The notes beneath the pieces are model-generated. The model had not been told where the DNA came from. It was given only the letters and a program-made list of their open reading frames with translations, and did not search any database. This document shows, in pieces, positions 1 to 13,058 of a DNA stretch of 13,058 bases. The DNA is from Bacteroidales bacterium UBA3663. GTDB taxonomy: Bacteria; Bacteroidota; Bacteroidia; Bacteroidales; UBA3663. Position numbers and translations under genes: made by a program. The stretch covers positions 1-13,058 of the forward strand of contig DFJU01000075.1 in the NCBI GenBank assembly GCA_002373755.1. The letters are read 5' to 3'. Position 1 is the first letter of the stretch; the number at the start of each line of letters is the position of its first letter.

Positions 1-2422
1 TCTGCGTCAGGTCGTTGGTGCCGAACGAGAAATATTCGGCATGGGCGGCAACTGCATCGGCCGTCAACGCAGCACGTGGAATCTCAATCATCGTACCGAC
101 CTTGAATTCGATAGGCTCGACACCCTCCTTGGCGAAGAGTTCAGCCGCCGTCTTGCGGATGATTTCCTCCTGCTGCTCAAACTCGGTGTGCTTGCCGACC
201 AGCGGAACCATGATTTCGGGATGCGGGTCGAAGCCCTCCTTGCGCAGCTGGATGGCGGCTCCGATGATGGCGCGCGTCTGCATCTCGGTGATTTCCGGAT
301 AGGTGTTGCCCAAGCGGCATCCGCGATGTCCGAGCATCGGGTTGTTTTCGCTGAGCGACTCGACGCGGGCTGCGATGTATTCGAGCGTGACGCCCATCGC
401 ATCGGCCATCTCCTGCTGTCCCTTCAGGTCGTGCGGAACGAACTCGTGCAACGGCGGGTCGAGCAGGCGGATGTTGACTGGCAGGCCGTCCATGGCCTTG
501 AGGATGCCGTAGAAATCCTTGGTCTGGTAGGGCAAGAGCTTGGCCAATGCCTTTTCGCGGCCCTCCTTGTTTTCGGCCAATATCATCTCGCGCATGGCCT
601 TGATCTTCTCGCCCTCGAAGAACATGTGTTCCGTGCGGCACAGGCCGACGCCGACGGCTCCGAACTGACGGGCCACGGTTGCGTCGTGTGGCGTGTCGGC
701 ATTGGTGCGGACGACAAGTTTCGTGTATTTGTCGCACAACGACATCAACTCGGCGAAGTCGCCCGAAATCTCGGCGGCCTTGGTCTCAACCTCGCCCAAC
801 AGCACCTGTCCGGTCGAGCCGTTGATTGAAATGTAGTCGCCCTCCTTGAGCGTGACGTCCTCAATCTTGACCGTCTTCTTGACGTAATCGACCTGCAATG
901 CGCCGGCGCCCGACACGCAGCACTTGCCCATGCCACGGGCCACGACGGCTGCGTGCGATGTCATACCGCCTCGGCAGGTGAGGATACCCTCGGCAGCGGC
1001 CATACCGGCCAAATCTTCGGGCGAGGTCTCGATGCGCACCATCACGACCTGATGCCCCTTCTTGTGCCAAGCCTCAGCATCGTCGGCATTGAACACAATC
1101 TGACCGCAAGCGGCGCCTGGCGATGCCGGCAGTCCGGTGGTGAGCACACGCGCCTTCTTCAACGCGTCCTTATCGAACACAGGGTGGAGCAATTCGTCCA
1201 ATTTCTGCGGTTCGCAACGCTCCAAAGCGGTTTTCTCGTCGATGAGACCCTCGTGCATCAAGTCCATCGCAATCTTGACCATCGCCGTGCCGGTGCGCTT
1301 TCCGTTGCGCGTCTGGAGGAACCAGAGTTTGCCCTCCTGCACGGTGAATTCCATGTCCTGCATGTCGTGGTAGTGGTTCTCAAGCTTCGTCTGGAGTTCG
1401 TCCAACTGCTTGTATATCTCCGGCATGGCCTCCTCCATCGACGGATATTTTGCCAAACGCTCCTCCTCGCTGATTTCTGCGCGACGAGCCCAACGCTGCG
1501 AGCCCTCCTTGGTAATCTGCTGCGGTGTGCGGATACCGGCCACGACGTCCTCGCCCTGTGCATTGACGAGCCATTCGCCGTTGAAGATGTTCTCGCCCGT
1601 AGCTGCATCGCGGCTGAAGCATACACCCGTGGCCGAAGTGTTGCCCATGTTGCCGAACACCATTGCCATGACGCTCACTGCGGTGCCCCATTCGGCCGGA
1701 ATGCCCTCCATCTTTCGGTAGAGGATGGCGCGCTCGTTCATCCACGAGTCGAACACGGCGCAGATGGCGCCCCAAAGCTGCTCATAGACGTCGGTCGGGA
1801 ACGGTTTGCCGGTGCGCTCCTTGATCATCGACTTGAATTTCTTGACCAATTCCTGCAGGCCCTCCACCGGAATATCCTTGTCGAGCACCACGTCGTATTG
1901 TTTCTTGACCTCCTCGATGATGGCCTCAAACGGGTCGATGTCGGTCTTGTTCACCGGCTTCAGTCCCATCACCACGTCGCCATACATCTGGACGAAGCGG
2001 CGGTAAGAGTCCCATGCGAAACGCGGGTTGTTGGTCTTCTTGGCCAATCCCTCGACCACCGTGTCGTTGAGTCCGAGGTTCAGAATCGTATCCATCATAC
2101 CCGGCATCGATGCGCGTGCTCCCGAACGGACGCTGACCAGCAGCGGGTTGGCGGCATCGCCGAAGGTGGAGTTCATCAGTGTTTCAATGTGTTTCACGGC
2201 CGATAAGACGTCGTCGTGCAACAATGCAACGGTCTTCTCCTTGCCCACCTGATAGTATTCGTTGCAGACGTCAGTTGTAATGGTGAAACCAGGGGGGACA
2301 GGCACGCCAATCAGATTCATTTCGGCGCAGTTTGCACCTTTGCCACCCAGTTCGTTTCTCATCTGTGCGTTACCCTCAGCCTTTCCGTTGCCGAAGCGGT
2401 AAACGCGTTTCTTGTTATCCAT
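1..2422 (-). CDS. ppdK: Pyruvate phosphate dikinase, C-terminus cut by window edge
   Basis: The enzyme interconverts pyruvate + ATP + phosphate and PEP + AMP + pyrophosphate in the cytosol, linking glycolysis and gluconeogenesis. Starting from the ATG at 2420-2422 (protein begins MDNKKRVYRFG), 807 codons are present with no stop. Visible landmarks are the N-terminal nucleotide-binding segment (NELGGKGANCAEM, then VPVPPGFTITTE), the phospho-histidine swivel motif GGMTSHAAVVARGMGK with His490 (codon at 953-955), and the PEP/pyruvate-binding barrel with GTNDLTQ at the very edge. Compared with the well-studied clostridial enzyme, about 100 C-terminal residues are missing, including the catalytic Cys region, so full length would be about 910 residues. 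The frame is uninterrupted. It has its own promoter and is separated from the upstream protease gene by a terminator, so it is probably monocistronic at its 5' side. Identification is secure. Confidence 0.97.
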   Translation of the reverse strand, partial: MDNKKRVYRFGNGKAEGNAQMRNELGGKGANCAEMNLIGVPVPPGFTITTDVCNEYYQVGKEKTVALLHDDVLSAVKHIETLMNSTFGDAANPLLVSVRSGARASMPGMMDTILNLGLNDTVVEGLAKKTNNPRFAWDSYRRFVQMYGDVVMGLKPVNKTDIDPFEAIIEEVKKQYDVVLDKDIPVEGLQELVKKFKSMIKERTGKPFPTDVYEQLWGAICAVFDSWMNERAILYRKMEGIPAEWGTAVSVMAMVFGNMGNTSATGVCFSRDAATGENIFNGEWLVNAQGEDVVAGIRTPQQITKEGSQRWARRAEISEEERLAKYPSMEEAMPEIYKQLDELQTKLENHYHDMQDMEFTVQEGKLWFLQTRNGKRTGTAMVKIAMDLMHEGLIDEKTALERCEPQKLDELLHPVFDKDALKKARVLTTGLPASPGAACGQIVFNADDAEAWHKKGHQVVMVRIETSPEDLAGMAAAEGILTCRGGMTSHAAVVARGMGKCCVSGAGALQVDYVKKTVKIEDVTLKEGDYISINGSTGQVLLGEVETKAAEISGDFAELMSLCDKYTKLVVRTNADTPHDATVARQFGAVGVGLCRTEHMFFEGEKIKAMREMILAENKEGREKALAKLLPYQTKDFYGILKAMDGLPVNIRLLDPPLHEFVPHDLKGQQEMADAMGVTLEYIAARVESLSENNPMLGHRGCRLGNTYPEITEMQTRAIIGAAIQLRKEGFDPHPEIMVPLVGKHTEFEQQEEIIRKTAAELFAKEGVEPIEFKVGTMIEIPRAALTADAVAAHAEYFSFGTNDLTQ

Positions 2423-2475
2423 AAATTAGATTTAGAATGATTAATGTGTAAGTTTCATGTGATTTTTCACAAGCG

Positions 2476-2507
2476 CAAAGATACAATCATTTCGCGCAAC
2501 AGACAAA
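2476..2507 (-). promoter_or_regulatory. Bacteroidota-type promoter of ppdK
   Basis: Read on the minus strand, the sequence has TTTG (2504-2507), exactly 20 bases, then TATCTTTG (2476-2483). This is a perfect match to the known -33 TTTG / -7 TAnnTTTG consensus with 19-21 spacing. Transcription should start near 2470, giving a leader of about 48 bases that opens with a small hairpin (TGTGA/TCACA, 2458-2471). Confidence 0.85.
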
Positions 2508-2549
2508 CATTCGCACAATCATTCTTCGCGACATTGCACAATAAAATCG

Positions 2550-2559
2550 GTTGCGCAAC
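2550..2559. promoter_or_regulatory. Possible operator palindrome upstream of ppdK promoter
   Basis: GTTGCGCAAC is a perfect 10-bp palindrome about 45 bp upstream of the ppdK -33 box. A related word (TTCGCGCAAC, 2491-2500) lies inside the promoter spacer, and the two halves of the region share ACAATCATT followed by TCGCG. Such spacing would suit an activator site, but no binding protein can be named from the sequence. The rest of the 262-bp gap holds only the promoter and the terminator of the neighbouring gene. Confidence 0.25.
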
Positions 2560-2638
2560 ATTAAAACATGTTCTACAGCACATCAAATTCGTGGTCAACG
2601 GCTCTCTTCCGCACCTTTCAGCGTCATTGCCAACGGAC

Positions 2639-2680
2639 AAAAATCGCGTAGCAGGCCATAATCGGGAAACTGCTACGCGA
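2639..2680 (-). terminator. Intrinsic terminator of the C10 protease gene
   Basis: Perfect 11-bp arms (TCGCGTAGCAG at 2644-2654, CTGCTACGCGA at 2670-2680) enclose a 15-base loop. On the minus strand a run of five T (2643-2639) follows directly. It lies 4 bp beyond the protease stop codon. The plus-strand side reads CTTTTC, so weaker activity in the other direction is possible. Confidence 0.88.
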
Positions 2681-2684
2681 CTTT

Positions 2685-4781
2685 TCATTTGTAAACTTTT
2701 GTCTTCAGTCCGGGCGAACAGTTTTCGAACAATGCGCCCGAGGTGCGCGCACTCTGGGGATACGACAAATCGCGCAACGATGCGCAACCCATGAACGGCA
2801 CCTTTCCGAACCCTGTCACCTTCGATGGCACGACAATCGTCTCAATCGACTGGCAGCCCATAAAGGCATAATCGTCGATGCGGCGCGTGCTTTCGGGCAG
2901 GTAAAATTCGCGTAGCGACGAGCATCCGGCAAACATCCGACTGCCAATCACGTTAGCCCGGGCGTTGCAGTGAATCAAATATGTGCCGTCGGCTGAACGC
3001 GAGAAACTGACACCTTCAAGTTTTGCGCCGACCTCACTCTGGAAGCGCGTCCACGTCGCATCGTCCATATTGTCGAAGTCGTAGTTTACGGTCTCGACCA
3101 ACACGCCGCCCACGCCCGAAGTCTTCGTCTGCTGCCAGATGCCGGTCGCCCGTTCGGTGAGGTAAGGCTTGGAATCGTCAACGAAATGCGCCTTCGACAT
3201 GTCGAGCTGTTGCAACGAGCCCCACGGATACTGCACACGCTGGTTGAGGTCGGTCGCACCCGCCATCTGGCGCAACAACTTGATGTCGTCGCTGCCGATC
3301 GGGCCGTCGAGGATGAGCGACGTGACACGCTGCAAGGTCTCGGTCGGCATAAGGTTGCGCAACGTGTTCGGACGCGCCAATGTCAGCTTCTTTTTCACCG
3401 CATCGCGCTGTGGTTCAATACCATAGACAATATCGTCGAACACCGCCACGTTGTCATCTGCACGGCCGACATTGAGCAGATAGTATCCGTTGCAATAGCC
3501 CTCCCAGCCCAGATTGCAATGGAAATAGTCGCCGTTGACGCCATCGCACACAAACGCATGATTGCCGCGCGACACGATGCACGGACGGCCGCCGGCAAGT
3601 TCTGCGCGCAAAAGGGCTTTCACATCGGCCGCAGTCGCATCGGAAAAATTGCCGTATGCCACGCTGCCCGAATACTTCAGATTGTTGACCAGAATATGCT
3701 TGATGGAGCTCAGGCAGACGCCTTTGCTGATCGACAGGCCGCACGACACGGCGCAAAGCGAAAGCACGCTCAACGTCTTGGCCAACGGCTGCGCGGCGGC
3801 CACCTCGTCTTTTCCGTACGACGGCCGGTAGTCGCGCCACAACGGAATGAAAGTCATGAATTTGTAGCTCGAAATCTGTCCGTTTTTGCCCGACACGAGA
3901 ATCTCCGACACGCCTTTGTCGGGCCAGCTGTGACGCTTCATCACCATGCCCATCGCCAACGGCACGCAGCCGAGCAACGAATTTTTGTCGCCCACGCGCG
4001 GGAGCATCGAATTGTACGGTTCGGCCTGTCCCCAACGCAAATTGCCGAGCAGCGGAGCGACTTTCTGATCGGACGAGGCAGCGGCGCGCGCCGGCACATC
4101 GGACCTGCGGACGGCCTCAATCTGCTGCGTGTAGAGCGACATCAGCACACGGTCAACAGTTTCGTCCGACGGCTCAATCGGGCTTTCCACGCCGTAGGCC
4201 AGCACCGGATGGCTCAGACGGTCCCAGTCGTCGGCATGTGCCATCAGGCAGAAGCATCCCGTCCGCACATCGCTGAACGCCATCACCGCGCGGTTGTCCG
4301 ACTCGAGCGTCAGACAGAGCGAATCGGCATTGACCCCATTGCGCACCAGCCAGTTGTGCGCGGCAGTCATCTCCTTGCCGTAGGTCGGGTTCGGACGCAC
4401 ATAGACCATGCGTGTGGCCGATGTCGCGGTCTTGTCGCCGATGGGCACCGTCATGGCCGGCAACTCAACACGGCCGATGCGCGACGTGACATATTCTGCC
4501 CGCGTAGTGAGCACGGAATAGAGCCGGTCGCTCGCCTTTTCGGTGTTGTAGTGGACGCGCTGCAACGCCACCGACTTGCCTTCGGGGGCAGAACCTCTGC
4601 CCCACTGGTTGGCGGTGAGCACGTAAGTCACCTGAAACGGCACGCCCTGCGTCACCGTGTCCGGCGCAGAAATGGTGAAACTCTTCACGGAGCTCGGCTT
4701 TGTGTCCGATGGATTCTGCGCTGCGGCCGACGTAGTTGCAAAAGCCGTCGCAGCGAAAATCAAAAAGGTTGGAAATTTCAT
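2685..4781 (-). CDS. Secreted C10 (streptopain-like) cysteine protease with C-terminal BspA-type leucine-rich repeats
   Basis: The 698-residue protein begins MKFPTFLIF with a signal peptide and a likely cut after AAA21. Residues about 30-128 form a beta-rich segment resembling the BatD-type N-domain. Residues about 140-225 look like the inhibitory propeptide of C10 proteases (CFCLMAHADDWDRLSHPVLAYG). The catalytic domain, about 240-455, has nucleophile Cys272 in SLLGCVPLAMGMVMKRH and His408 in GNHAFVCDGVNGDYFHCN, followed by LGWEGYCNGYY, the counterpart of the family's NWGWGG. Residues about 605-690 carry degenerate LRR_5 repeats (MFAGCSSLREFYLPES, YAFMGCQSIETIVVPS). No type IX sorting domain is evident, so the final location is uncertain. 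An in-frame ATG at 4874 would add 31 residues before the signal peptide and was rejected. Known relatives are interpain and streptopain, which degrade host proteins; the substrate here is unknown. The gene is monocistronic with its own terminator. Confidence 0.88.
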   Translation of the reverse strand: MKFPTFLIFAATAFATTSAAAQNPSDTKPSSVKSFTISAPDTVTQGVPFQVTYVLTANQWGRGSAPEGKSVALQRVHYNTEKASDRLYSVLTTRAEYVTSRIGRVELPAMTVPIGDKTATSATRMVYVRPNPTYGKEMTAAHNWLVRNGVNADSLCLTLESDNRAVMAFSDVRTGCFCLMAHADDWDRLSHPVLAYGVESPIEPSDETVDRVLMSLYTQQIEAVRRSDVPARAAASSDQKVAPLLGNLRWGQAEPYNSMLPRVGDKNSLLGCVPLAMGMVMKRHSWPDKGVSEILVSGKNGQISSYKFMTFIPLWRDYRPSYGKDEVAAAQPLAKTLSVLSLCAVSCGLSISKGVCLSSIKHILVNNLKYSGSVAYGNFSDATAADVKALLRAELAGGRPCIVSRGNHAFVCDGVNGDYFHCNLGWEGYCNGYYLLNVGRADDNVAVFDDIVYGIEPQRDAVKKKLTLARPNTLRNLMPTETLQRVTSLILDGPIGSDDIKLLRQMAGATDLNQRVQYPWGSLQQLDMSKAHFVDDSKPYLTERATGIWQQTKTSGVGGVLVETVNYDFDNMDDATWTRFQSEVGAKLEGVSFSRSADGTYLIHCNARANVIGSRMFAGCSSLREFYLPESTRRIDDYAFMGCQSIETIVVPSKVTGFGKVPFMGCASLRDLSYPQSARTSGALFENCSPGLKTKVYK

Positions 4782-4884
4782 TTCAGCTACTTGTGTTTTA
4801 GGTAATTGCGCATAAAAAGACTGACAGATTCCGATCTGTTGTTGACCGATGGCCGATGCAAAGGCCGCAACCATTTGGTATGCG

Positions 4885-4892
4885 CGAAGATA
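4885..4892 (-). promoter_or_regulatory. Candidate -7 element for the C10 protease gene
   Basis: The minus strand reads TATCTTCG, one base from the TAnnTTTG consensus, about 100 bases ahead of the start codon. No good TTTG -33 box lies 19-21 bases upstream. The same 11-mer TATCTTCGCGC is found in the clpC promoter facing the other way, which supports a real element. The leader would be about 97 bases. Confidence 0.4.
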
Positions 4893-4977
4893 GTAAGAAA
4901 TTCGGCATAAACACCTGTCAGTCGTTCATTTTCGCCGATGCAGAACAAAAATGCCGGCATTTCCTGCCCCGAACACC

Positions 4978-5080
4978 CGCGTAGCAAGTCGTTTTTATGT
5001 CCGATGCCCATCGGCCGCAACATGAACGGATGCAAAATGGCGCAGAATCGGCATCGGACATAGCCGCTACGCGACTTTTT
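4978..5080 (+). repeat. Long inverted repeat with terminator-like 3' end
   Basis: There are two nested perfect arm pairs: CGCGTAGC (4978-4985) with GCTACGCG (5066-5073), and TATGTCCGATGCC (4996-5008) with GGCATCGGACATA (5050-5062). On the plus strand the outer arm is followed by ACTTTTT, like an intrinsic terminator, yet no plus-strand gene lies upstream. GCTACGCGACTTTT (5066-5079) is repeated exactly at 2672-2685 in the protease terminator. It may insulate the two divergent genes, end a short RNA, or be one of a repeat family. Confidence 0.6.
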
Positions 5081-5140
5081 GGCAAATCAGACTGCCATTT
5101 GAGCGCGCCGCAATGAGCATCGGACAACGAAAAAAACATT

Positions 5141-5174
5141 TTTGCACGTCGCTCCGCATTTTTTCTTATCTTCG
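5141..5174 (+). promoter_or_regulatory. Candidate clpC promoter
   Basis: TTTG (5141-5144) is followed after 22 bases by TATCTTCG (5167-5174). Both boxes are near the Bacteroidota consensus, with one -7 mismatch and a spacer one base longer than usual. Transcription would start near 5181, giving a leader of about 120 bases. No CIRCE-like or CtsR-like operator was recognised in the leader. Confidence 0.5.
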
Positions 5175-5301
5175 CGCGCAACGCATCTTCGGAAAGGCGA
5201 ATCGGCCGCAAAAGCATCGGCCAAGACCTATCAAGCCGCAACTCACTGAAATGCAAGCATATACATAGAAAAGAATCAACCCAAATGATTTACTGAGTGA
5301 A

Positions 5302-7926
<2,625 letters not shown>

Positions 7927-7966
7927 AAAAAGGTGGTTGTTCGGGAAATCCGGGCAACCACTTTTA
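7927..7966 (+). terminator. Intrinsic terminator of clpC
   Basis: A 12-bp stem (7933-7944 with 7950-7961, two G-U pairs) encloses the five-base loop GAAAT and is followed by TTTT (7962-7965). A run of A precedes the stem. It starts just after the clpC stop codon. Confidence 0.9.
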
Positions 7967-7994
7967 GCTAACAAGTATGGCAATCTAGTTAGCT
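7966..7994. repeat. Short inverted repeat after the clpC terminator
   Basis: Perfect 7-bp arms AGCTAAC (7966-7972) and GTTAGCT (7988-7994) are separated by 15 bases, ahead of the TonB-domain gene. They could be an operator or chance; no recognisable -33/-7 promoter lies near. Confidence 0.3.
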
Positions 7995-8037
7995 CAGAGA
8001 GGCGTTATTCAGATGAAAGACATTGAACTATAAAACC

Positions 8038-8964
8038 ATGAGAATAAAAGTTACGTTCATCCTCTTTTGCTTTTTTATGACATTTGGCATCGCATGGTGT
8101 CAAACGCTTTCATGGGAAGAGATTCGCTACCCTGGACAAAAAGGACTAAATCCTATTGACCTGATTGCGAAGGTTAACAATACGCTAAACGAGCCATGTT
8201 TCATAATGATTTCACAACGTCATTATGTCGATACCGATTCCTTGCATAAAAGCCTTCACCGCAAAATATATGGCACTAAAATCGGACAAACAACATTAGG
8301 ATTTTTTATCCATGACCAATATATTCTTCAAAATCCTATCCCCTGCCATATTCCAGAAACATTTGTTAAAAAATTGGCCATCGGCGAAGAGTTCAAATTT
8401 ATTCTATCGACCCATTCCGACAAAGGAGAAGAAGTTCAAAATGATTTTTCAAAAAGGCTGCTGATTGTACCTGCATCCATTACAGAATCTATTTTTGAAC
8501 AGAAAATGAGTGAATTAGGCTTTCTATACGAACCCAGCCAAGTGTCCGTACTTTGGGAAGACTTGTCAAGCAGATTTCAAGACGAAAAGAATAATTGCGA
8601 TACTAACATGATAGTAGCGCAAGAGCATTTGCCCGATGACATCATTGTTTATGCATTAGATTGTGACTCTATGCCAGTCTTCCCTGGCGGAGATTATGAA
8701 TTTGCACGATACATTACCAAAAACTACCACTATCCAATGGACGTTGCCCAACAAGGCATCATCGGCAAAGTTATCGGTGAATTTGTCATAGAAAAAGACG
8801 GCTCGATTTCGAACATTACGGTCACCCAATCTCCACATGAAAAAATAAGTGCAGAGTATATCCATCTCATCCAATCCATGCCGAAATGGAAACCTGCCTA
8901 TTTCAGAGGCAAGACAACACGCTGTAAATTTGTCTTTCTGCTCAATGCGCCTCGCCTCCGGTGA
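8038..8964 (+). CDS. Secreted protein with C-terminal TonB domain (orphan TonB-like)
   Basis: The 308-residue protein starts MRIKVTFILFCFF, a signal peptide or N-terminal anchor ending near AWCQ. I chose the ATG at 8038 because the in-frame TTG at 8023 only adds MNYKT before the hydrophobic segment. Residues about 22-205 match nothing I know. Residues 213-306 are a clear TonB C-terminal domain: PVFPGGDYEFARYI (213-226), GIIGKVIGEFVIEKDGSI (240-257) and MPKWKPA (281-287) followed by RGK. In Bacteroidota this domain is often fused to unrelated periplasmic sequences and not always tied to ExbBD. There is no proline-rich spacer of classical TonB and no exbB/exbD here, so an energy-transducing role is doubtful. 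The gene is visibly more AT-rich than clpC, suggesting transfer or different age. It has no clear promoter of its own, and the clpC terminator lies upstream. Confidence 0.82.
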   Translation: MRIKVTFILFCFFMTFGIAWCQTLSWEEIRYPGQKGLNPIDLIAKVNNTLNEPCFIMISQRHYVDTDSLHKSLHRKIYGTKIGQTTLGFFIHDQYILQNPIPCHIPETFVKKLAIGEEFKFILSTHSDKGEEVQNDFSKRLLIVPASITESIFEQKMSELGFLYEPSQVSVLWEDLSSRFQDEKNNCDTNMIVAQEHLPDDIIVYALDCDSMPVFPGGDYEFARYITKNYHYPMDVAQQGIIGKVIGEFVIEKDGSISNITVTQSPHEKISAEYIHLIQSMPKWKPAYFRGKTTRCKFVFLLNAPRLR

Positions 8965-8992
8965 ATGTCGCATAACAGCTTCAAATTAAACC

Positions 8993-9016
8993 ATTATTGG
9001 CGTTTTTAGCCATAAT
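8993..9016 (+). terminator. Weak hairpin after the TonB-domain gene
   Basis: ATTAT plus GGC (8993-9001, one bulged T) pairs with GCC plus ATAAT (9009-9016) around a T-rich loop. There is no T-run after the stem, so intrinsic termination is doubtful. The rest of the 213-bp gap is AT-rich and holds only the promoter of the next module. Confidence 0.25.
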
Positions 9017-9141
9017 AGTTCAAAATAGAGCCATTACGAAATTGACCAAACAGGGGAAAACAATTAAAACACACAAATGGCCTTTCATACGGTTTATGCA
9101 AAAATCACAAAACAGTCATGCGAAAATTGAAAGAATTTGTA

Positions 9142-9149
9142 TACCTTTG
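9142..9149 (+). promoter_or_regulatory. -7 element of the toxin-antitoxin operon
   Basis: TACCTTTG fits the TAnnTTTG consensus; the -33 region has no good TTTG at the right distance. It overlaps the small palindrome TTTGCAAA (9146-9153), a possible autoregulatory site. Transcription would begin near 9155, about 23 bases ahead of the antitoxin ATG, which rules out the earlier ATG at 9118. Confidence 0.55.
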
Positions 9150-9177
9150 CAAAAGAAACTCAAAAAATGTCAAGCGT

Positions 9178-9396
9178 ATGAGCTACACACAAATGGCACA
9201 ACTGGAACTGATGAACGCAGCGGCCAATGTCACCACACAAGCCGATCTTGACGCATTGCGTCTCACCCTCTCACTTTTTTTTGCACAGCGGGCACAGCAA
9301 GCTATCGACAAAATGTGGGATGAGGGGACTTTTGACCAAAAGAAATTGGACGAGTTGCGCAGCCTGCATCTACGCACTCCATACAAGACACTTTGA
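9178..9396 (+). CDS. Small antitoxin partner of the PIN toxin
   Basis: The 72-residue protein (MSYTQMAQLELMNAAANV...) is largely helical and ends RTPYKTL. From memory it resembles the short proteins that regularly precede COG1569-type PIN toxins in Bacteroidota, which share a core like FFAQRAQQAIDKMWDEG (here residues 34-50) and a terminal RTPY. The expected role is to bind and block the toxin, and perhaps repress the operon, but no recognisable DNA-binding fold is visible. The start at 9178 is preferred because the -7 element at 9142-9149 lies downstream of the alternative ATG at 9118. The stop codon is 2 bp before the toxin ATG, so the two are translationally coupled. The functional call rests mainly on gene order and family resemblance. 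Confidence 0.72.
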   Translation: MSYTQMAQLELMNAAANVTTQADLDALRLTLSLFFAQRAQQAIDKMWDEGTFDQKKLDELRSLHLRTPYKTL

Positions 9397-9398
9397 AA

Positions 9399-9809
9399 AT
9401 GCGATACATAGTTCTCGACACCAACGCGCTCATTCAAGCTCTTCCTTCACGGAGTCAGTACCATCAAATTTGGACTGATTTTCTGGAAGGGAGATATTGT
9501 TTATGCGTCAGCAACGAAATTCTGTCGGAATATGAGGAAATTCTTGCGATGCACGCCACCCCCGAAATAGCACACAATGTTGTGGAAGCCATCGCCCGTC
9601 ATCCAAAGACTCTCTACCGAGAATCTTACTATCATTTCCACTTGCTTAGCGATGTTGACAAGGATGATGACAAATTTGTAGATTGCGCTATTACGGCAGA
9701 TGCAGATTATATTGTTACCGAGGATAGTCACTTTGATTTACTCAAAAGGATTCCATTTCCCAAACTCAATATTCTTACCCTCGACGAATTCAATGAATCA
9801 CTCAAATAA
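9399..9809 (+). CDS. PIN-domain toxin (putative ribonuclease), COG1569/TIGR00305 type
   Basis: The 136-residue protein is a single PIN domain across its whole length. The four acidic positions expected for a metal-dependent RNase are all visible: Asp7 in VLDTNALIQAL, Glu44 in NEILSEYEEIL, Asp89/Asp90 in DVDKDDDKFVDCAI, and Asp109 in ADYIVTEDSHF. It ends LNILTLDEFNESL, matching the family's usual end. The ATG at 9399 is preferred over the TTG at 9393, which overlaps the antitoxin stop and adds only MK. Known PIN toxins cleave RNA, often tRNA, and are held in check by the upstream-encoded partner; the target here is unknown. The active site looks intact, so the module may be functional. The gene is AT-richer than clpC and lies convergent to the ATPase gene. 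Confidence 0.87.
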   Translation: MRYIVLDTNALIQALPSRSQYHQIWTDFLEGRYCLCVSNEILSEYEEILAMHATPEIAHNVVEAIARHPKTLYRESYYHFHLLSDVDKDDDKFVDCAITADADYIVTEDSHFDLLKRIPFPKLNILTLDEFNESLK

Positions 9810-9845
9810 AACGCCAAGCGAGTTTTCTTTATAGAATGAATATCA

Positions 9846-9891
9846 AATCCTCCCAATGCCGGACTTTCGTCCAACTTTGGGAGGATTCATT
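9846..9891. terminator. Duplicated rpiB terminator, probably bidirectional
   Basis: Perfect 10-bp arms AATCCTCCCA (9846-9855) and TGGGAGGATT (9878-9887) enclose a smaller hairpin GGAC/GTCC around TTTC. On the plus strand CATTTT follows, so it can end the PIN toxin transcript. On the minus strand an AT-rich tract follows, ending the ATPase transcript after it crosses the rpiB remnant. Confidence 0.75.
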
Positions 9892-9908
9892 TTGCTGCGA
9901 TAAGGAAA

Positions 9909-10022
9909 TCACTTCTTCACAGGAATTGCCTCGATGCGCTGCTGGTGGCGGCCACCGGCGAACTCCGTTGCAAAGAACTCGTCAAGGCACTTGCGGCAAG
10001 TCTCCTCGTCGATGAAACGGCC
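9909..10022 (-). pseudogene. Headless rpiB remnant (last 37 codons and stop)
   Basis: Read on the minus strand it encodes GRFIDEETCRKCLDEFF and on to EAIPVKK with a TGA stop. It equals the end of the intact RpiB except for one Asp-to-Glu change. Five of six nucleotide differences are synonymous, which is unlike free decay. There is no start codon or upstream rpiB sequence, and an in-frame TAA lies three codons before the break. It is best seen as part of the duplicated repeat that flanks the ATPase gene. Confidence 0.93.
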
Positions 10023-10039
10023 AGTTACTTATCCGAACC

Positions 10040-11308
10040 TTAAATTGAGTTTGGCACATTCCACTTAATCAAAAAGTGGAACAAACCCATAAAGGTGATG
10101 CCATGTTCGTCAATGTAGGGAGCAATGTCATCGCCGACGATGACAATCTTACGGAAACTGTCGTCAATCTTCAGGAGCGATTTAAGCTCCTGCTCACGCT
10201 TCTCTTCAGAGTCTAAACGATAGGCCGACTGGATATAGTAGCGGTCAATGCCATTGGTGGCAATAAAATCCACTTCATATTGAGACTGCACTTGTCGGTT
10301 GTCAATCATCTCACGGTTTTCCACTACGCCGACATCGACCAGAAAACCCTTGATGCGCAACTCATTGTAGATGACATTTTCCATGATGTGCGGAATTTCC
10401 TGCTGACGGAAATTCAGACGGGCATTTCGCAGTCCGACATCCACGGAATAGTACTTCTTGATCGATTCAAAGTACCGACGCCCTTTGATGTTGTAGCGTT
10501 TCACCCCATCGAACAGGTAGGCATCAGTCAAATAATCCAAGTAATTGGTTACCGTGTCGCTCGTGATTTTGCAATGCTGTACACTTTGCATCGTGTTGGC
10601 CAACCTCGATGGATTGTTGAGCGAACCGATAGAAGAACAGAGTACGTCTGCAAGAGTCTCGATGGCTTCCCTGTTACGGATTTTGTTACGGTCAATGACA
10701 TCGGTCATATAGACTTTCTGCCAAAGGTGTTGCAGGTAGTTGATCTTCTGTTCTGCAGTACGTTGCAATAAGAGCCCTGGCATACCACCATACGTGTAAT
10801 ATTCCTTCCACAATTCGTTAATACTCTCCGTGCGCCCTTCAATGAACTCTTTGAACGAGAATGGCCAGACTCGGATTTCGTCGCCCCGACCACGGAAGAG
10901 TGTGTTGATGTCGCTGCTCAGATAGTGGCTGTTGCTTCCCGTGACATAGACATCGACATTGTTTTTTGCCGCCAATCCATTCACTATTCTTTCGAAACCA
11001 TCTACTTCCTGCACCTCATCGAGCATAACATAATACTGCTTGCTTTCGTCCGTGATGCGTGCATACAAATATTCCTTGAGGACAGCAGGTTGCAGCAAAT
11101 CGGTTTGGTTGTTATCATCGTCCATGTCGAACGAGATATGGATAATCTGCGACTCGTCCACGCCGATGCTTATCAGATATTGCGTGAAAATCTGTCTCAA
11201 CAACCAAGACTTGCCCGAACGGCGAGGACCAGTGATGATTTTGACCAATCCGTTGTGCATCCTTTGCTTGATTCTCTCCAAGTAGAGGTCTCTCTTAACA
11301 ATGTACAT
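10040..11308 (-). CDS. Stand-alone AAA_14/DUF4143 ATPase
   Basis: The 422-residue protein has an N-terminal P-loop domain: Walker A GPRRSGKS (27-34), Walker B YVMLDE (93-98), a sensor-like VTGSNSHYL (122-130), and RGRGDEIRVWPFSFKEF (139-155), typical of AAA_14. Residues about 200-365 match DUF4143, whose C-terminal half has a restriction-nuclease-like core. Here that core reads YEVDFI (344-349) and YYIQSAY (357-363), so the Glu-x-Lys of active nucleases is replaced and catalysis is doubtful. Such proteins are common and multicopy in Bacteroidota, and their function is unknown. I chose the ATG at 11308 because the promoter predicts a start of transcription near 11336; the in-frame ATG at 11335 would be leaderless. 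Its stop is 15 bp from the rpiB remnant, so it has no terminator of its own. It is AT-richer than clpC, consistent with acquisition. Confidence 0.9.
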   Translation of the reverse strand: MYIVKRDLYLERIKQRMHNGLVKIITGPRRSGKSWLLRQIFTQYLISIGVDESQIIHISFDMDDDNNQTDLLQPAVLKEYLYARITDESKQYYVMLDEVQEVDGFERIVNGLAAKNNVDVYVTGSNSHYLSSDINTLFRGRGDEIRVWPFSFKEFIEGRTESINELWKEYYTYGGMPGLLLQRTAEQKINYLQHLWQKVYMTDVIDRNKIRNREAIETLADVLCSSIGSLNNPSRLANTMQSVQHCKITSDTVTNYLDYLTDAYLFDGVKRYNIKGRRYFESIKKYYSVDVGLRNARLNFRQQEIPHIMENVIYNELRIKGFLVDVGVVENREMIDNRQVQSQYEVDFIATNGIDRYYIQSAYRLDSEEKREQELKSLLKIDDSFRKIVIVGDDIAPYIDEHGITFMGLFHFLIKWNVPNSI

Positions 11309-11342
11309 GTCGTTACTAGCTATGCATGAGAGCATTGCGCTG

Positions 11343-11374
11343 CAAAGTTACGCTTTTTATACTTACTTTCCAAA
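11343..11374 (-). promoter_or_regulatory. Bacteroidota-type promoter of the ATPase gene
   Basis: On the minus strand TTTG (11371-11374) is followed after exactly 20 bases by TAACTTTG (11343-11350), a perfect consensus match. Transcription should start near 11336, giving a leader of about 28 bases before the ATG at 11308. The ATPase therefore does not depend on rpiB transcription. Confidence 0.87.
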
Positions 11375-11390
11375 TTCCTATTCGGAATTT
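11372..11390. promoter_or_regulatory. Palindrome overlapping the ATPase -33 box, possible operator
   Basis: AAATTCC (11372-11378) and GGAATTT (11384-11390) are perfect 7-bp arms around five bases, and the left arm overlaps the -33 TTTG. A protein bound here would be expected to hinder RNA polymerase. No regulator gene is encoded beside it; self-regulation by the ATPase is only a guess. Confidence 0.45.
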
Positions 11391-11467
11391 AATGCAAGTT
11401 TGCAGTAAATTTCGACCACTCGCTATATTCTATTCTGAATTTAGTGCAAGTTTGCAGTGAATTTCGA
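11378..11467. repeat. Pair of 38-bp direct repeats upstream of the ATPase gene
   Basis: Copies at 11378-11415 and 11430-11467 differ at only three positions and are 14 bp apart. Each contains the dyad TGCAAGTTTGCA (11393-11404 and 11445-11456). The block is bounded by inverted CTATTCG (11378-11384) and CGAATAG (11465-11471). It lies exactly between the ATPase promoter and the true rpiB terminator, so it could be a cassette end or a regulator-binding array. Confidence 0.85.
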
Positions 11468-11652
11468 ATAGAGAATCCTCCCCAAGCCAGACTTTCGTCC
11501 AACTTTGGGAGGATTCATTTTGCTGCGATAAGGAAATCACTTCTTCACCGGAATCGCCTCGATGCGCTGCTGGTGGCGGCCTCCGGCAAACTCCGTTGCA
11601 AAGAACTCGTCAAGGCACTTGCGGCAAGTATCCTCGTCGATGAAGCGGCCAG
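11466..11652. repeat. Direct repeat copy A: native rpiB 3' end and terminator
   Basis: This partner of the repeat at 9838-10024 forms the real end of rpiB plus its hairpin. The repeat period is 1628 bp. Recombination between the two copies would remove the ATPase gene and leave rpiB and a terminator intact. Confidence 0.97.
11473..11516 (-). terminator. Hairpin terminator downstream of rpiB
   Basis: Arms GAATCCTCCC (11473-11482) and GGGAGGATTC (11507-11516) are perfect over 10 bp, with additional AAG/CTT pairing inside. It starts about 20 bp after the rpiB stop. On the minus strand the following bases are CTCTATTC, a poor T-tract, so termination may be leaky toward the ATPase. Confidence 0.7.
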
Positions 11653-11980
11653 GGAAGACGATGACATTGGCATCGTTATGCTCGCGGATGAGGTGGGCAA
11701 TTTCGGGCTGCCAGACAAGGCCGGCGCGGATGCTCTGATGCTTGTTGAGCGTCATCGAGATGCCTTCGCCCGAGCCGCACATGGCAATGCCGGGATAGAC
11801 CTCGCCACGCTCAATTCCCTCGGCCAAAGCATGGCCAAAAGTCGCGTAGTTGCACGACTCTTCGGTCAGCGTGCCGTAGTCCTTGAACTGCATACCTTTC
11901 TCTTCAAGATACTTCTTTACAAACTGCTTCAATGGAAAGGCGGCGTGGTCGCTGGCCAATCCTACAATCTTAACATTCAT
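11537..11980 (-). CDS. rpiB: Ribose 5-phosphate isomerase B
   Basis: The 147-residue cytosolic enzyme interconverts ribose 5-phosphate and ribulose 5-phosphate in the pentose phosphate pathway. It shows the RpiB/LacA fold signature: SDHAAFPLK with Asp11-His12 near the N-terminus, the phosphate/active-site loop AMCGSGEGISMTLNKH with Cys68 as the expected base, then IRAGLVW, and HNDANVIVFPGR (101-112), with basic residues near the C-terminus (GGRHQQR). The loop reads CGSGEG rather than the CGTGIG of the E. coli enzyme. The ATG at 11980 gives the usual length. It is 62 bp from the lipoprotein gene, with a terminator-like hairpin between them and little room for a separate promoter. Its final 37 codons are duplicated at 9909-10022. 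Confidence 0.95.
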   Translation of the reverse strand: MNVKIVGLASDHAAFPLKQFVKKYLEEKGMQFKDYGTLTEESCNYATFGHALAEGIERGEVYPGIAMCGSGEGISMTLNKHQSIRAGLVWQPEIAHLIREHNDANVIVFPGRFIDEDTCRKCLDEFFATEFAGGRHQQRIEAIPVKK

Positions 11981-11994
11981 TTTCTATAAGAATC

Positions 11995-12025
11995 AAAAAT
12001 TTGCCCTCCCAACTTGGGGAGGGCA
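11995..12025 (-). terminator. Intrinsic terminator between the lipoprotein gene and rpiB
   Basis: Perfect 9-bp GC-rich arms TGCCCTCCC (12002-12010) and GGGAGGGCA (12017-12025) enclose a six-base loop. On the minus strand AA then TTTTTG (11999-11995) follows. It lies 17 bp after the lipoprotein stop and about 15-20 bp before the rpiB ATG, so it could attenuate rpiB rather than simply separate the genes. Confidence 0.85.
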
Positions 12026-12042
12026 TTGTTGTTTGGTGTCGT

Positions 12043-12879
12043 TTAGAGCTGGATGATGAGGTATGGAGAACCGTTCCAGAACTTGGTTACATCGGTGATA
12101 GTCAACGTAGTTGTGCCATCGCCATTAGCCTTCAAGGTGTAGCTGTCGGCTGGCTTGACGGTGATGAGTTTCGGGCTGCGGCTCTGGATGGTTACGTTGG
12201 TGAACTCGCGGATGTCAACCTTCTCGAAGAGCGATGCGTCGAGGTTCTGATACTTGGCCTTCTTCTTGAATACGCCTTCAATCAGACCAGCGGCCTTCAG
12301 TGCCTTCTTGGTGTCGGCACGGTAGTAGCCGGTGTTGAGTGCAATGTCCTGATTCTTGGCGACCTCAACGTAGTGGTCGCGGTCGGCCTCAACAGCCTCC
12401 TTGGCAACGGTGATTTCGCGCACCTTGTTCTTCAAGTCCTCGATGCTTGCATTCTTCTGCGAGAGCTCCTCCTGAAGTTCTGCAATCTGAGCATCCTTGG
12501 CCTCAATCTGTGCGTTCAGTTCGTCGATGAGCTTCTTCAAGTTGGCTGCATATCCACGGCTGCCGCTCAACTGCTTCTTCATTTTCTCAAGCTCCTCACG
12601 CTGCTGAGCCATGTGGTCGCGGAAAGTCTGCATACGGGTCAGGACAGCCTGCTTGTCCTTCAAATCCTTGCCATTGTCGTCAACGAAGATAAGTCCCTCA
12701 TCGACAGCCATTTCGTTCATTGTGCTGTTGATGGTGCCCAACATATCATTCATCTGGGCATTGGCAGCCTCAATCGAGTCCTTCTGAGCCTTCAAAGCGT
12801 CATACTCTGCCTGTGGCACTTTCGGTGTGCAAGCGGCCAACAATGCGACACAGCTTGCCAAAAATAAGATTTTTTTCAT
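12043..12879 (-). CDS. Coiled-coil lipoprotein, Cbp1 collagen-binding adhesin family (probable)
   Basis: The 278-residue protein begins MKKILFLASCVALLAACTPK, a lipoprotein signal with lipobox LAAC and Cys17 as the lipidated residue. Residues about 25-180 are a long charged heptad-rich coiled coil (EELEKMKKQL, KDAQIAELQEELSQKN). The C-terminal 90 residues form a small domain: NTGYYRADTKKALKAAG, then FEKVDIREFTNVTI, RSPKLITVKPADSYTL and the end FWNGSPYLIIQL. From memory this closely follows the Bacteroides family named after the B. fragilis collagen-binding protein Cbp1; most members are untested, and adhesion here is only a family-based suggestion. A structural envelope role is an alternative. 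It sits between the probable transketolase gene and rpiB on the same strand and is followed by its own terminator. The A-rich stretch before the ATG is typical of this phylum. Confidence 0.8.
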   Translation of the reverse strand: MKKILFLASCVALLAACTPKVPQAEYDALKAQKDSIEAANAQMNDMLGTINSTMNEMAVDEGLIFVDDNGKDLKDKQAVLTRMQTFRDHMAQQREELEKMKKQLSGSRGYAANLKKLIDELNAQIEAKDAQIAELQEELSQKNASIEDLKNKVREITVAKEAVEADRDHYVEVAKNQDIALNTGYYRADTKKALKAAGLIEGVFKKKAKYQNLDASLFEKVDIREFTNVTIQSRSPKLITVKPADSYTLKANGDGTTTLTITDVTKFWNGSPYLIIQL

Positions 12880-12987
12880 CGTTTTTTGTTGTTTTAATGG
12901 TTAAAAAATAAAGGGTGTGAATTATCTGCAATAATAGCTGTGTGGCCGACATTGCCCATCGGACAACGCCAGCCACATCGGCATATT

Positions 12988-13058
12988 TTACTTCTTCAGC
13001 ATCTTCTTGACCTGGTTATAGACGTTCTCGCCCGTGAAGCCGAGTTTCTCGTCGAGCA
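12988..13058 (-). CDS. C-terminal end of probable transketolase, cut by window edge
   Basis: The last 22 codons and a TAA stop read LDEKLGFTGENVYNQVKKML followed by KK. The pattern of GFT, ENV and a final basic amphipathic helix matches the end of transketolase (E. coli ends with FGFTVENVVAKAKALL-like sequence). A transketolase gene next to rpiB is a frequent arrangement in Bacteroidales, which supports the call. The piece is too short to exclude another enzyme. A 108-bp gap separates it from the lipoprotein gene; it contains a weak inverted repeat TGTGGC/GCCACA (12941-12977) without a T-run and no convincing promoter. Confidence 0.6.
   Translation of the reverse strand, partial: LDEKLGFTGENVYNQVKKMLKK

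Follow-up and report, generated by a model that had tools for sequence, protein, structure and literature searches.

Integrative elements that restore the 3′ end of the gene they enter are known from tRNA genes, guaA and similar targets. Insertion with a long target duplication has been described for restriction-modification genes in Helicobacter (Nobusato et al., 2000, as reported in extracts of PMC1643837 and PMC3031569). Homology-facilitated illegitimate recombination, which leaves displaced "orphan" modules, has been proposed for the effector-immunity arrays of the Vibrio type VI secretion system (T6SS) and for rhs loci (extracts of PMC5361080 and PMC3240628). Here we describe a stretch of 13,058 nt from Bacteroidales bacterium UBA3663 (assembly GCA_002373755.1, contig DFJU01000075.1, positions 1 to 13,058; hereafter the window), in which a single ATPase gene with AAA_14 and DUF4143 domains lies between two copies of the 3′ end of rpiB, the gene for ribose-5-phosphate isomerase B.

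The ATPase is of the PDC-S01 class, the PADLOC single-gene defence candidates described as an ATPase fused to a PD-(D/E)XK member (extracts of PMC12988326 and PMC13356809). With 10,358 occurrences, PDC-S01 is reported to outnumber every other individual defence locus in genomes from the cattle rumen (PMC13356809, in part), and to be the fourth most common across prokaryotes (PMC12988326, in part). Nineteen genes annotated as COG1373, "Predicted ATPase, AAA+ superfamily", were found among near-identical genes shared between gut genera (PMC10782964, in part).

The duplicated rpiB end

A BLAST comparison of the whole window with itself gave one direct repeat at E <= 1e-3, a 187-nt family with an E value of 4e-78, which excludes chance as its origin. 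The two copies are 94% identical (12 of the 187 positions differ), are spaced 1,628 nt apart, and hold the final ~38 codons of rpiB and its hairpin terminator; we call them T, the end of the intact gene, and R, the headless copy (Table 1). A preliminary description of this DNA, made from the sequence alone, had reported this duplication around the ATPase gene, and the repeat search confirmed it. The size given there, 179 bp with 9 differences, holds for the inner stretch 9846-10024, and the full repeat is longer. The coordinates of the open reading frame (ORF) and of the repeat also bear out that the remnant begins 15 nt past the ATPase stop codon. In agreement with the same description, Pfam gave no integrase or transposase match in the six ORFs scanned, which span 8,023-12,879 and include none of those left of 8 kb. 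No terminal inverted repeats fitting a transposon were found, the four inverted-repeat pairs at 9000-13058 being within hairpin terminators or only 16-27 nt long and 70-88% identical.

We propose, with a probability of about 0.55, that the ATPase gene entered by host recombination anchored in rpiB and by a non-homologous join beside its stop codon, which displaced the resident rpiB end. The mobile piece would be the ATPase gene alone with two palindromes upstream of it, ~1.4 kb in all, and it would have entered a variable pocket bordered by rpiB and clpC, which converge on it. The donor would be DNA of a related strain in which the ATPase already stood behind rpiB. On one side, recombination by host recombinases through the common rpiB sequence would leave the living rpiB ending in the incoming allele, T; on the other side, where nothing is shared, the end of the ATPase piece would enter the resident rpiB end by a join without homology, and R would stay behind as a headless remnant.

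The codon positions of the differences bear on this reading. R and T differ at six coding positions, all of them third codon positions, with five silent changes and one Glu/Asp exchange. The chance of six out of six is 0.0014 at random and ~0.025 if half of the changes fell on a constrained gene. A decaying remnant should also show changes at first and second positions; the window has none, which speaks against decay since the insertion. The two copies look like two alleles and not like one duplicated target. Over the inner 179 positions R stands closer than T to the rpiB end of the sister species G009 (G-numbers denote compared genomes and L-numbers compared loci), and the sites at which one sequence departs alone are six for T, three for R and three for G009; the remainder of rpiB differs from G009 at 9 of 328 positions. 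These counts point to R as the resident end and to T as the incoming one, from numbers so small that the roles could be swapped: the sites are few and not significant alone, and the excess in T over the rest of rpiB is slight.

Ordinary target duplication, or unequal exchange inside a single genome, with later decay of the extra copy, has direct repeats as its footprint and fits two of the other loci, L313 and L150. In the window it has to face coding differences confined to third positions and an R copy closer to another species than to T, and we hold it to be very improbable here. Among the origins that the preliminary description had offered, donor DNA brought in by transfer fits the third-codon-only differences better, and an element copying its target fits them less. 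The same description spoke of a gene-rebuilding cassette. As to the outcome this is apt, since the intact rpiB now seems to end in incoming sequence and can be called a gene with a restored end; that the ATPase is the agent is unproven.

Scarcely credible, in our judgement, is an assembly chimera of two co-existing strains. The assembly is fragmented (161 contigs, 69.8% complete), which favours a chimera, but joining through shared k-mers is not expected to yield a junction between a cut rpiB end and an ATPase end, and flanking repeats occur in many assemblies from different makers.

A search for the rpiB end in 60 genomes (its own and 59 others) returned two matches in its own genome and a single match each in 12 of the 14 other genomes of the genus. 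In the sister species G009 the rpiB end is single, and a HipB-like gene and HipA occupy the spot where the window has the ATPase; AAA_14-type ATPases are carried elsewhere in its genome. The ATPase-free relative asked for in the preliminary description is available in part: the other flank of G009 differs (HipBA), so its site is not a clean empty one, and its HipA is split across two contig ends, so that the pocket parts are only presumed to be adjacent.

The convergent rpiB and clpC-like genes enclose other contents in other relatives. G010 has one 3,252-bp contig with the rpiB end, an HNH gene, an EcoRII-C gene and the clpC end, and its clpC-like gene bordering the pocket has AAA_2 and ClpB_D2-small matches. 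G012 has a DNA methylase gene after rpiB, with rpiB and clpC on separate contigs. Together with the PIN pair of the window, these contents indicate that the spot of the ATPase collects toxin-antitoxin and restriction genes. No clean empty site for the window was found, the PIN pair standing beside rpiB in the window alone among the 15 genomes of the genus searched; G008 carries a piece related to the PIN pair on a different contig from its rpiB. A 92-aa ORF at 9118-9396, without a Pfam match, lies just upstream of the PIN_3 gene, and the two look like an antitoxin-toxin pair.

Table 1. Coordinates of the features of the window, with the evidence for each
Feature	Position	Strand	Evidence or remark
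clpC-like gene (name taken from the translation); conserved, borders the pocket opposite rpiB	5302..7926	+	ORF; relatives border the pocket in G009 and G010
PIN_3 toxin-like gene	9393..9809	+	PF13470 E 7e-18, TIGR00305
Copy R: second, headless rpiB 3′ end and terminator, probably the displaced resident end	9838..10024	-	6/179 differences from G009
Junction, 15 nt, from ATPase stop codon to copy R	10025..10039		Sequence
AAA_14-DUF4143 ATPase gene, PDC-S01 class	10040..11335	-	431 aa; AAA_14 E 6e-33, DUF4143 E 8e-17
First of two imperfect palindromes, 38 nt, upstream of the ATPase	11378..11415		Repeat search; motif kept upstream of homologues
Second palindrome, 38 nt, 52 nt from the first, abutting copy T	11430..11467		Homology to the G014 unit stops at 11472
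Copy T: 3′ end of intact rpiB and hairpin terminator	11466..11652	-	9/179 differences from G009
rpiB (ribose-5-phosphate isomerase B), intact	11537..11980	-	PF02502 E 1.6e-49; last conserved gene ahead of the variable pocket

Flanking repeats at other ATPases and at Fic-type genes

Homologues of the ATPase were collected from a scan of genome contigs (84,980 species), in which 80 of 108 confirmed homologues were kept; judged by record titles, these come chiefly from rumen and gut Bacteroidales. In a first test, which counted repeats of at least 28 nt lying up to 400 nt upstream and up to 300 nt downstream, flanking repeats were present at 19 of 74 ATPases and, among the other ORFs of these loci, at 5 of 234, one of these five (L139) being itself an AAA_14-type ATPase. 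A wider test took repeats of at least 30 nt with E <= 1e-4 within 400 nt on either side, dropped ORFs with a flank shorter than 400 nt, and assigned Fic-type genes by a motif expression and ATPases by iterated BLASTP. Flanking repeats were found at 37 of 156 ATPases, a count that does not include the window's own gene and in which near-identical units such as L085 and L095 are not independent; 32 of the 37 have a non-palindromic repeat. The corresponding counts were 7 of 44 for Fic-type genes and 17 of 560 for other ORFs. The excess over other ORFs is clear for ATPases (P 1.5e-14) and for Fic-type genes (P 9e-4), and the two classes are not distinguishable from each other (P 0.31).

Ten of the 17 repeat-flanked "others" were scanned with Pfam. 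Two of them are DUF1016 genes (L275, L291), one is a Fic gene (L261) and one a PF09820 ATPase (L031); L155 has no match, and five match WYL, TonB, HTH, aconitase or LytTR models. Since Fic-type genes and some other single genes are flanked as well, the repeats mark transferred single genes, and the ATPase is unproven as their driver. One-sided homologous recombination with a non-homologous join is the simplest account that covers both the ATPases and the Fic-type genes.

The preliminary description had proposed looking for related ATPases between duplicated 3′ ends of different genes, and such loci exist. Where a repeat lies within 1,500 nt of the ATPase (47 loci), automatic ORF calls place it on a gene 3′ end in 14, on a 5′ end in one and inside an ORF in six; in the other 26 it lies where no 110-aa ORF was found. 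Genes with a duplicated 3′ end encode RtcB (L131), a RadA-like protein (L341), a YifB-like Mg-chelatase (L150), an ABC transporter (L056) and others. RadA-like and YifB-like are our names for Pfam patterns, and in L150 and L056 the distance between repeat and ATPase exceeds 400 nt on one side. Relatives of the L131 genome matched its flanks only distantly. Nearly a quarter of the tested relatives are repeat-flanked, and in some the repeats are ends that come from other genes. This pattern suggests recombination, with a spare gene end carried along, as the way in which such single genes spread.

The insertion L056 in G008 is 96% G005-like on its left side and 92% G003-like on its right side, and its empty site, a clean one, has a contiguous single-copy arrangement in both G003 and G005. 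L068 gave a mixed picture: the ATPase is common to G003, G004 and G011, and copy R is present in G004 only, seemingly younger than the insertion. At L085, L092, L095, L147 and L149 the units stand at the 3′ ends of genes whose C-termini resemble the sorting tails of the type IX secretion system (T9SS). Such repeated gene ends could offer ready homology for moving between sites.

The transferred unit and its upstream palindromes

The ATPase matches the PADLOC model of PDC-S01 with its residues 9-424 (model positions 5-408 of 412, E 2.4e-116), and the cargo may have a defence function. Judged against its closest homologue within the genus, in G014 (84% protein identity), translation may begin at an internal ATG ~27 nt downstream of the ORF start. 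A structure predicted from a 44-sequence alignment has a mean pLDDT of 88.5. In the model we recognise an AAA part, a set of helices ordered as in a winged helix and, at the C-terminus, a part of strands and helices whose order appears nuclease-like. The closest solved structure is the archaeal AAA+ ATPase 2fna (E 6e-9, TM 0.44), and the structures listed are mostly ATPases of the AAA, STAND and ORC types.

Beyond the palindromes and the ATPase gene, BLAST detected nothing shared by the window and the G014 copy. The extent of the transferred piece was delimited further from near-identical ATPases in different surroundings. The shared sequence runs from -195 to the stop codon in L137/L138, from about -205 to +12 in L100/L107, from -178 to +39 in L085/L086, from -275 to +48 in L087/L124 and from -510 to +86 in L080/L082; it is longer in L085/L095 (to about +140), L081/L095 (to about +155) and L142/L143 (-1,363 to +454). 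The unit ends 0 to +86 nt past the ATPase stop in 8 of 11 near-identical pairs.

The pair L147/L149, from two species, is telling. The genes upstream of the ATPase are orthologous and ~84% identical; then follow 33 identical nt up to the stop codon of that gene and a stretch of 1,469 nt with 4 differences, and the identity ends 6 nt past the ATPase stop. Given 84% identity, a run of 33 identical nt has a chance of 0.003, and the gene end seems to have travelled along with the ATPase.

Close homologues of the ATPase have ~38-nt palindromes upstream in one to three copies, often 51-52 nt apart. A palindrome with at least 13 of 17 pairs occurs within 210 nt upstream in 47 of 74 homologues, compared with 18 of 74 downstream and 0 of 74 in shuffled sequence. 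The window-type motif is uncommon elsewhere, with hits in 2 of 295 genomes of the order, one of them the window's own. This rules out a general dispersed repeat, within the reach of a pattern that would miss branches with other palindrome arms. The outer arms vary by ATPase branch in matching fashion (ATTCGGAA..TTCCGAAT, AACCGTTATTT..AAATACGGAT, TCGCC..GCGA), which is what a cognate binding site would show.

Several single sites may be recorded here. Paired palindromes at the 51-52 nt spacing are seen in the window (11378-11467) and in L069 (3204-3298). A palindrome stands on either side of the ATPase in L128 (39 nt, 97%) and L144 (36 nt, 100%), and a 60% identical ATPase lies between two sites 1,340 nt apart (G278:C23:23002-24379). 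L036 (G005:C120:18821-18851) is an isolated palindrome-like site, and the surrounding 3 kb hold no ATPase homologue.

These palindromes admit a self-acting unit, in which the ATPase would bind them or its target and drive a homing-like insertion behind gene 3′ ends, carrying the gene end with it. Their presence upstream of close homologues, far more often than in shuffled sequence, the rarity of the window-type motif elsewhere, the tight boundaries and the nearly identical unit at the same site in two species (L147/L149) all favour such a unit. It does not explain why Fic-type genes are flanked at a rate indistinguishable from that of the ATPases, and the palindromes occupy an operator-like position. 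Fic-type genes are not known to carry a nuclease. The position that we take to be the catalytic lysine of PD-(D/E)XK enzymes is apparently a nearly invariant glutamine in the family, which also counts against it. We consider the self-acting unit unlikely. Its fullest form would be a minimal self-moving defence unit, a single protein, able to recognise its own palindromes, that would travel from one species to another as a piece of 1.4-1.8 kb and settle behind gene 3′ ends, the donor-made end keeping the host gene whole; this we regard as distinctly doubtful.

Some neighbours of the unit are permuted. Sequence downstream of the ATPase in L085, L095 and L081 is found upstream of it in L086 (77-82% identity), and sequence upstream in L138 is found downstream in L137 (96%). 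Within those two genomes, the matches to nucleotides 48-133 of the L137/L138 piece all lie next to ATPases, except for pieces of 23-27 nt. A stretch of 86 nt (L374/L376 in G358:C80, L137, L138) borders ATPases of two branches, with 45% and 61% identity to that of the window, in one genome and an ATPase in another, and the longer matches in both genomes are adjacent to ATPases.

Permuted neighbours hint at circular or tandem intermediates. By recombination between the repeats the ATPase would be released as a circle, together with one gene end; the circle would enter the same gene end of another strain by a single crossover, and this would also account for the allele-like divergence of the copies. 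Tandem insertions explain the permutations equally well, and no such circle was found in the assemblies, reads being outside the search; we give this route little credence. A 2,630-bp circular record of Prevotella nigrescens, with a family ATPase (46% identical) and a piece of a methylase gene, was considered as the excised form (L378, L379; NZ_CP133466.1, NZ_CP082843.1). It was rejected, as it corresponds to a contiguous stretch of the large replicon between two direct 16-nt GACCCTCAAAAGAGGG sites with an Mpi-family recombinase gene nearby. This circle is probably an excised piece of a methylase shufflon, and so the product of another process.

Against entry by one-sided host recombination stand, besides the small numbers in the comparison of T, R and G009, several of these observations. 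The unit ends are tighter than random donor fragments would give, the palindromes are concentrated upstream of the homologues, and the permuted neighbours do not suit a purely passive account. In the wider test 119 of the 156 family members have no flanking repeat. The G014 homologue shows no flank duplication in 9,000 nt, and no gene-end remnant was found behind the ATPase in L147 or L149. The codon positions are also divided. Third-position bias recurs in L139 (20 of 25 differences, and 5 of 6 in its second repeat), L068 (9/10), L341 (4/5) and L131 (2/2). It is absent from L150 (6/13), L056 (1/5), L117 (1/3), L052 (1/5), L085 (5/8), L095 (4/8), L092 (4/10), the Fic-type L269 (2/6) and L313 (0/1), whose repeat is 99.7% identical over 294 nt, as plain target duplication would give. 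Because these counts differ among loci, the flanking repeats are of mixed origin. Repeats in doubtful ORFs (L044, L046, L096, L104, L142, L179, L324, L347, L351 and others) were kept out of the codon test and show no consistent codon-position bias.

Comparison with known systems

These loci are of fair interest, because the defence candidate is very common and little tested. The available parts of PMC13356809 and PMC12988326 do not state how PDC-S01 spreads, and flanking repeats, present at 37 of the 156 members, offer a handle on this question. The codon positions of differences in duplicated gene ends can separate donor-borne ends from plain target duplications, and host-driven one-sided recombination is a testable general route for small defence genes. 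Our literature search, with most subscription journals outside its reach, found no account of flanking duplications of DUF4143 genes.

The window's ATPase matches the PDC-S01 model, and the published accounts, in the parts available, treat the abundance of this class and its transfer between domains and not an insertion footprint (PMC12988326, PMC13356809). Similarly, no flanking structure is described in the available part of the study of genes shared between gut genera (PMC10782964). The loci described here share with integrative elements a gene end that is duplicated and rebuilt; they differ in that no integrase was found in the ORFs scanned and in that the length and position of the repeats change from one member to the next. 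We take COG1373 to be the AAA_14/DUF4143 family.

Closer is the insertion of restriction-modification genes with a long target duplication, as far as the extracts describe it. In both cases a gene or small set of genes lies between long, variable direct repeats of the target, and the cargo is defence-like. The cargo here is an AAA_14/DUF4143 ATPase in rumen Bacteroidales, with no restriction-modification system by Pfam, and at several loci the copies resemble diverged alleles and not one duplicated target. Our results would thus widen the restriction-modification observation to other single-gene cargo, PDC-S01 and Fic-type genes. The modules of the T6SS arrays and rhs loci, as portrayed in the extracts, are alike in the features that we propose for the window, a homology anchor on one side, a non-homologous join on the other and a resident piece displaced downstream. 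In those systems the newcomer displaces a piece of its own kind, whereas in the window an unrelated housekeeping gene would have had its end displaced.

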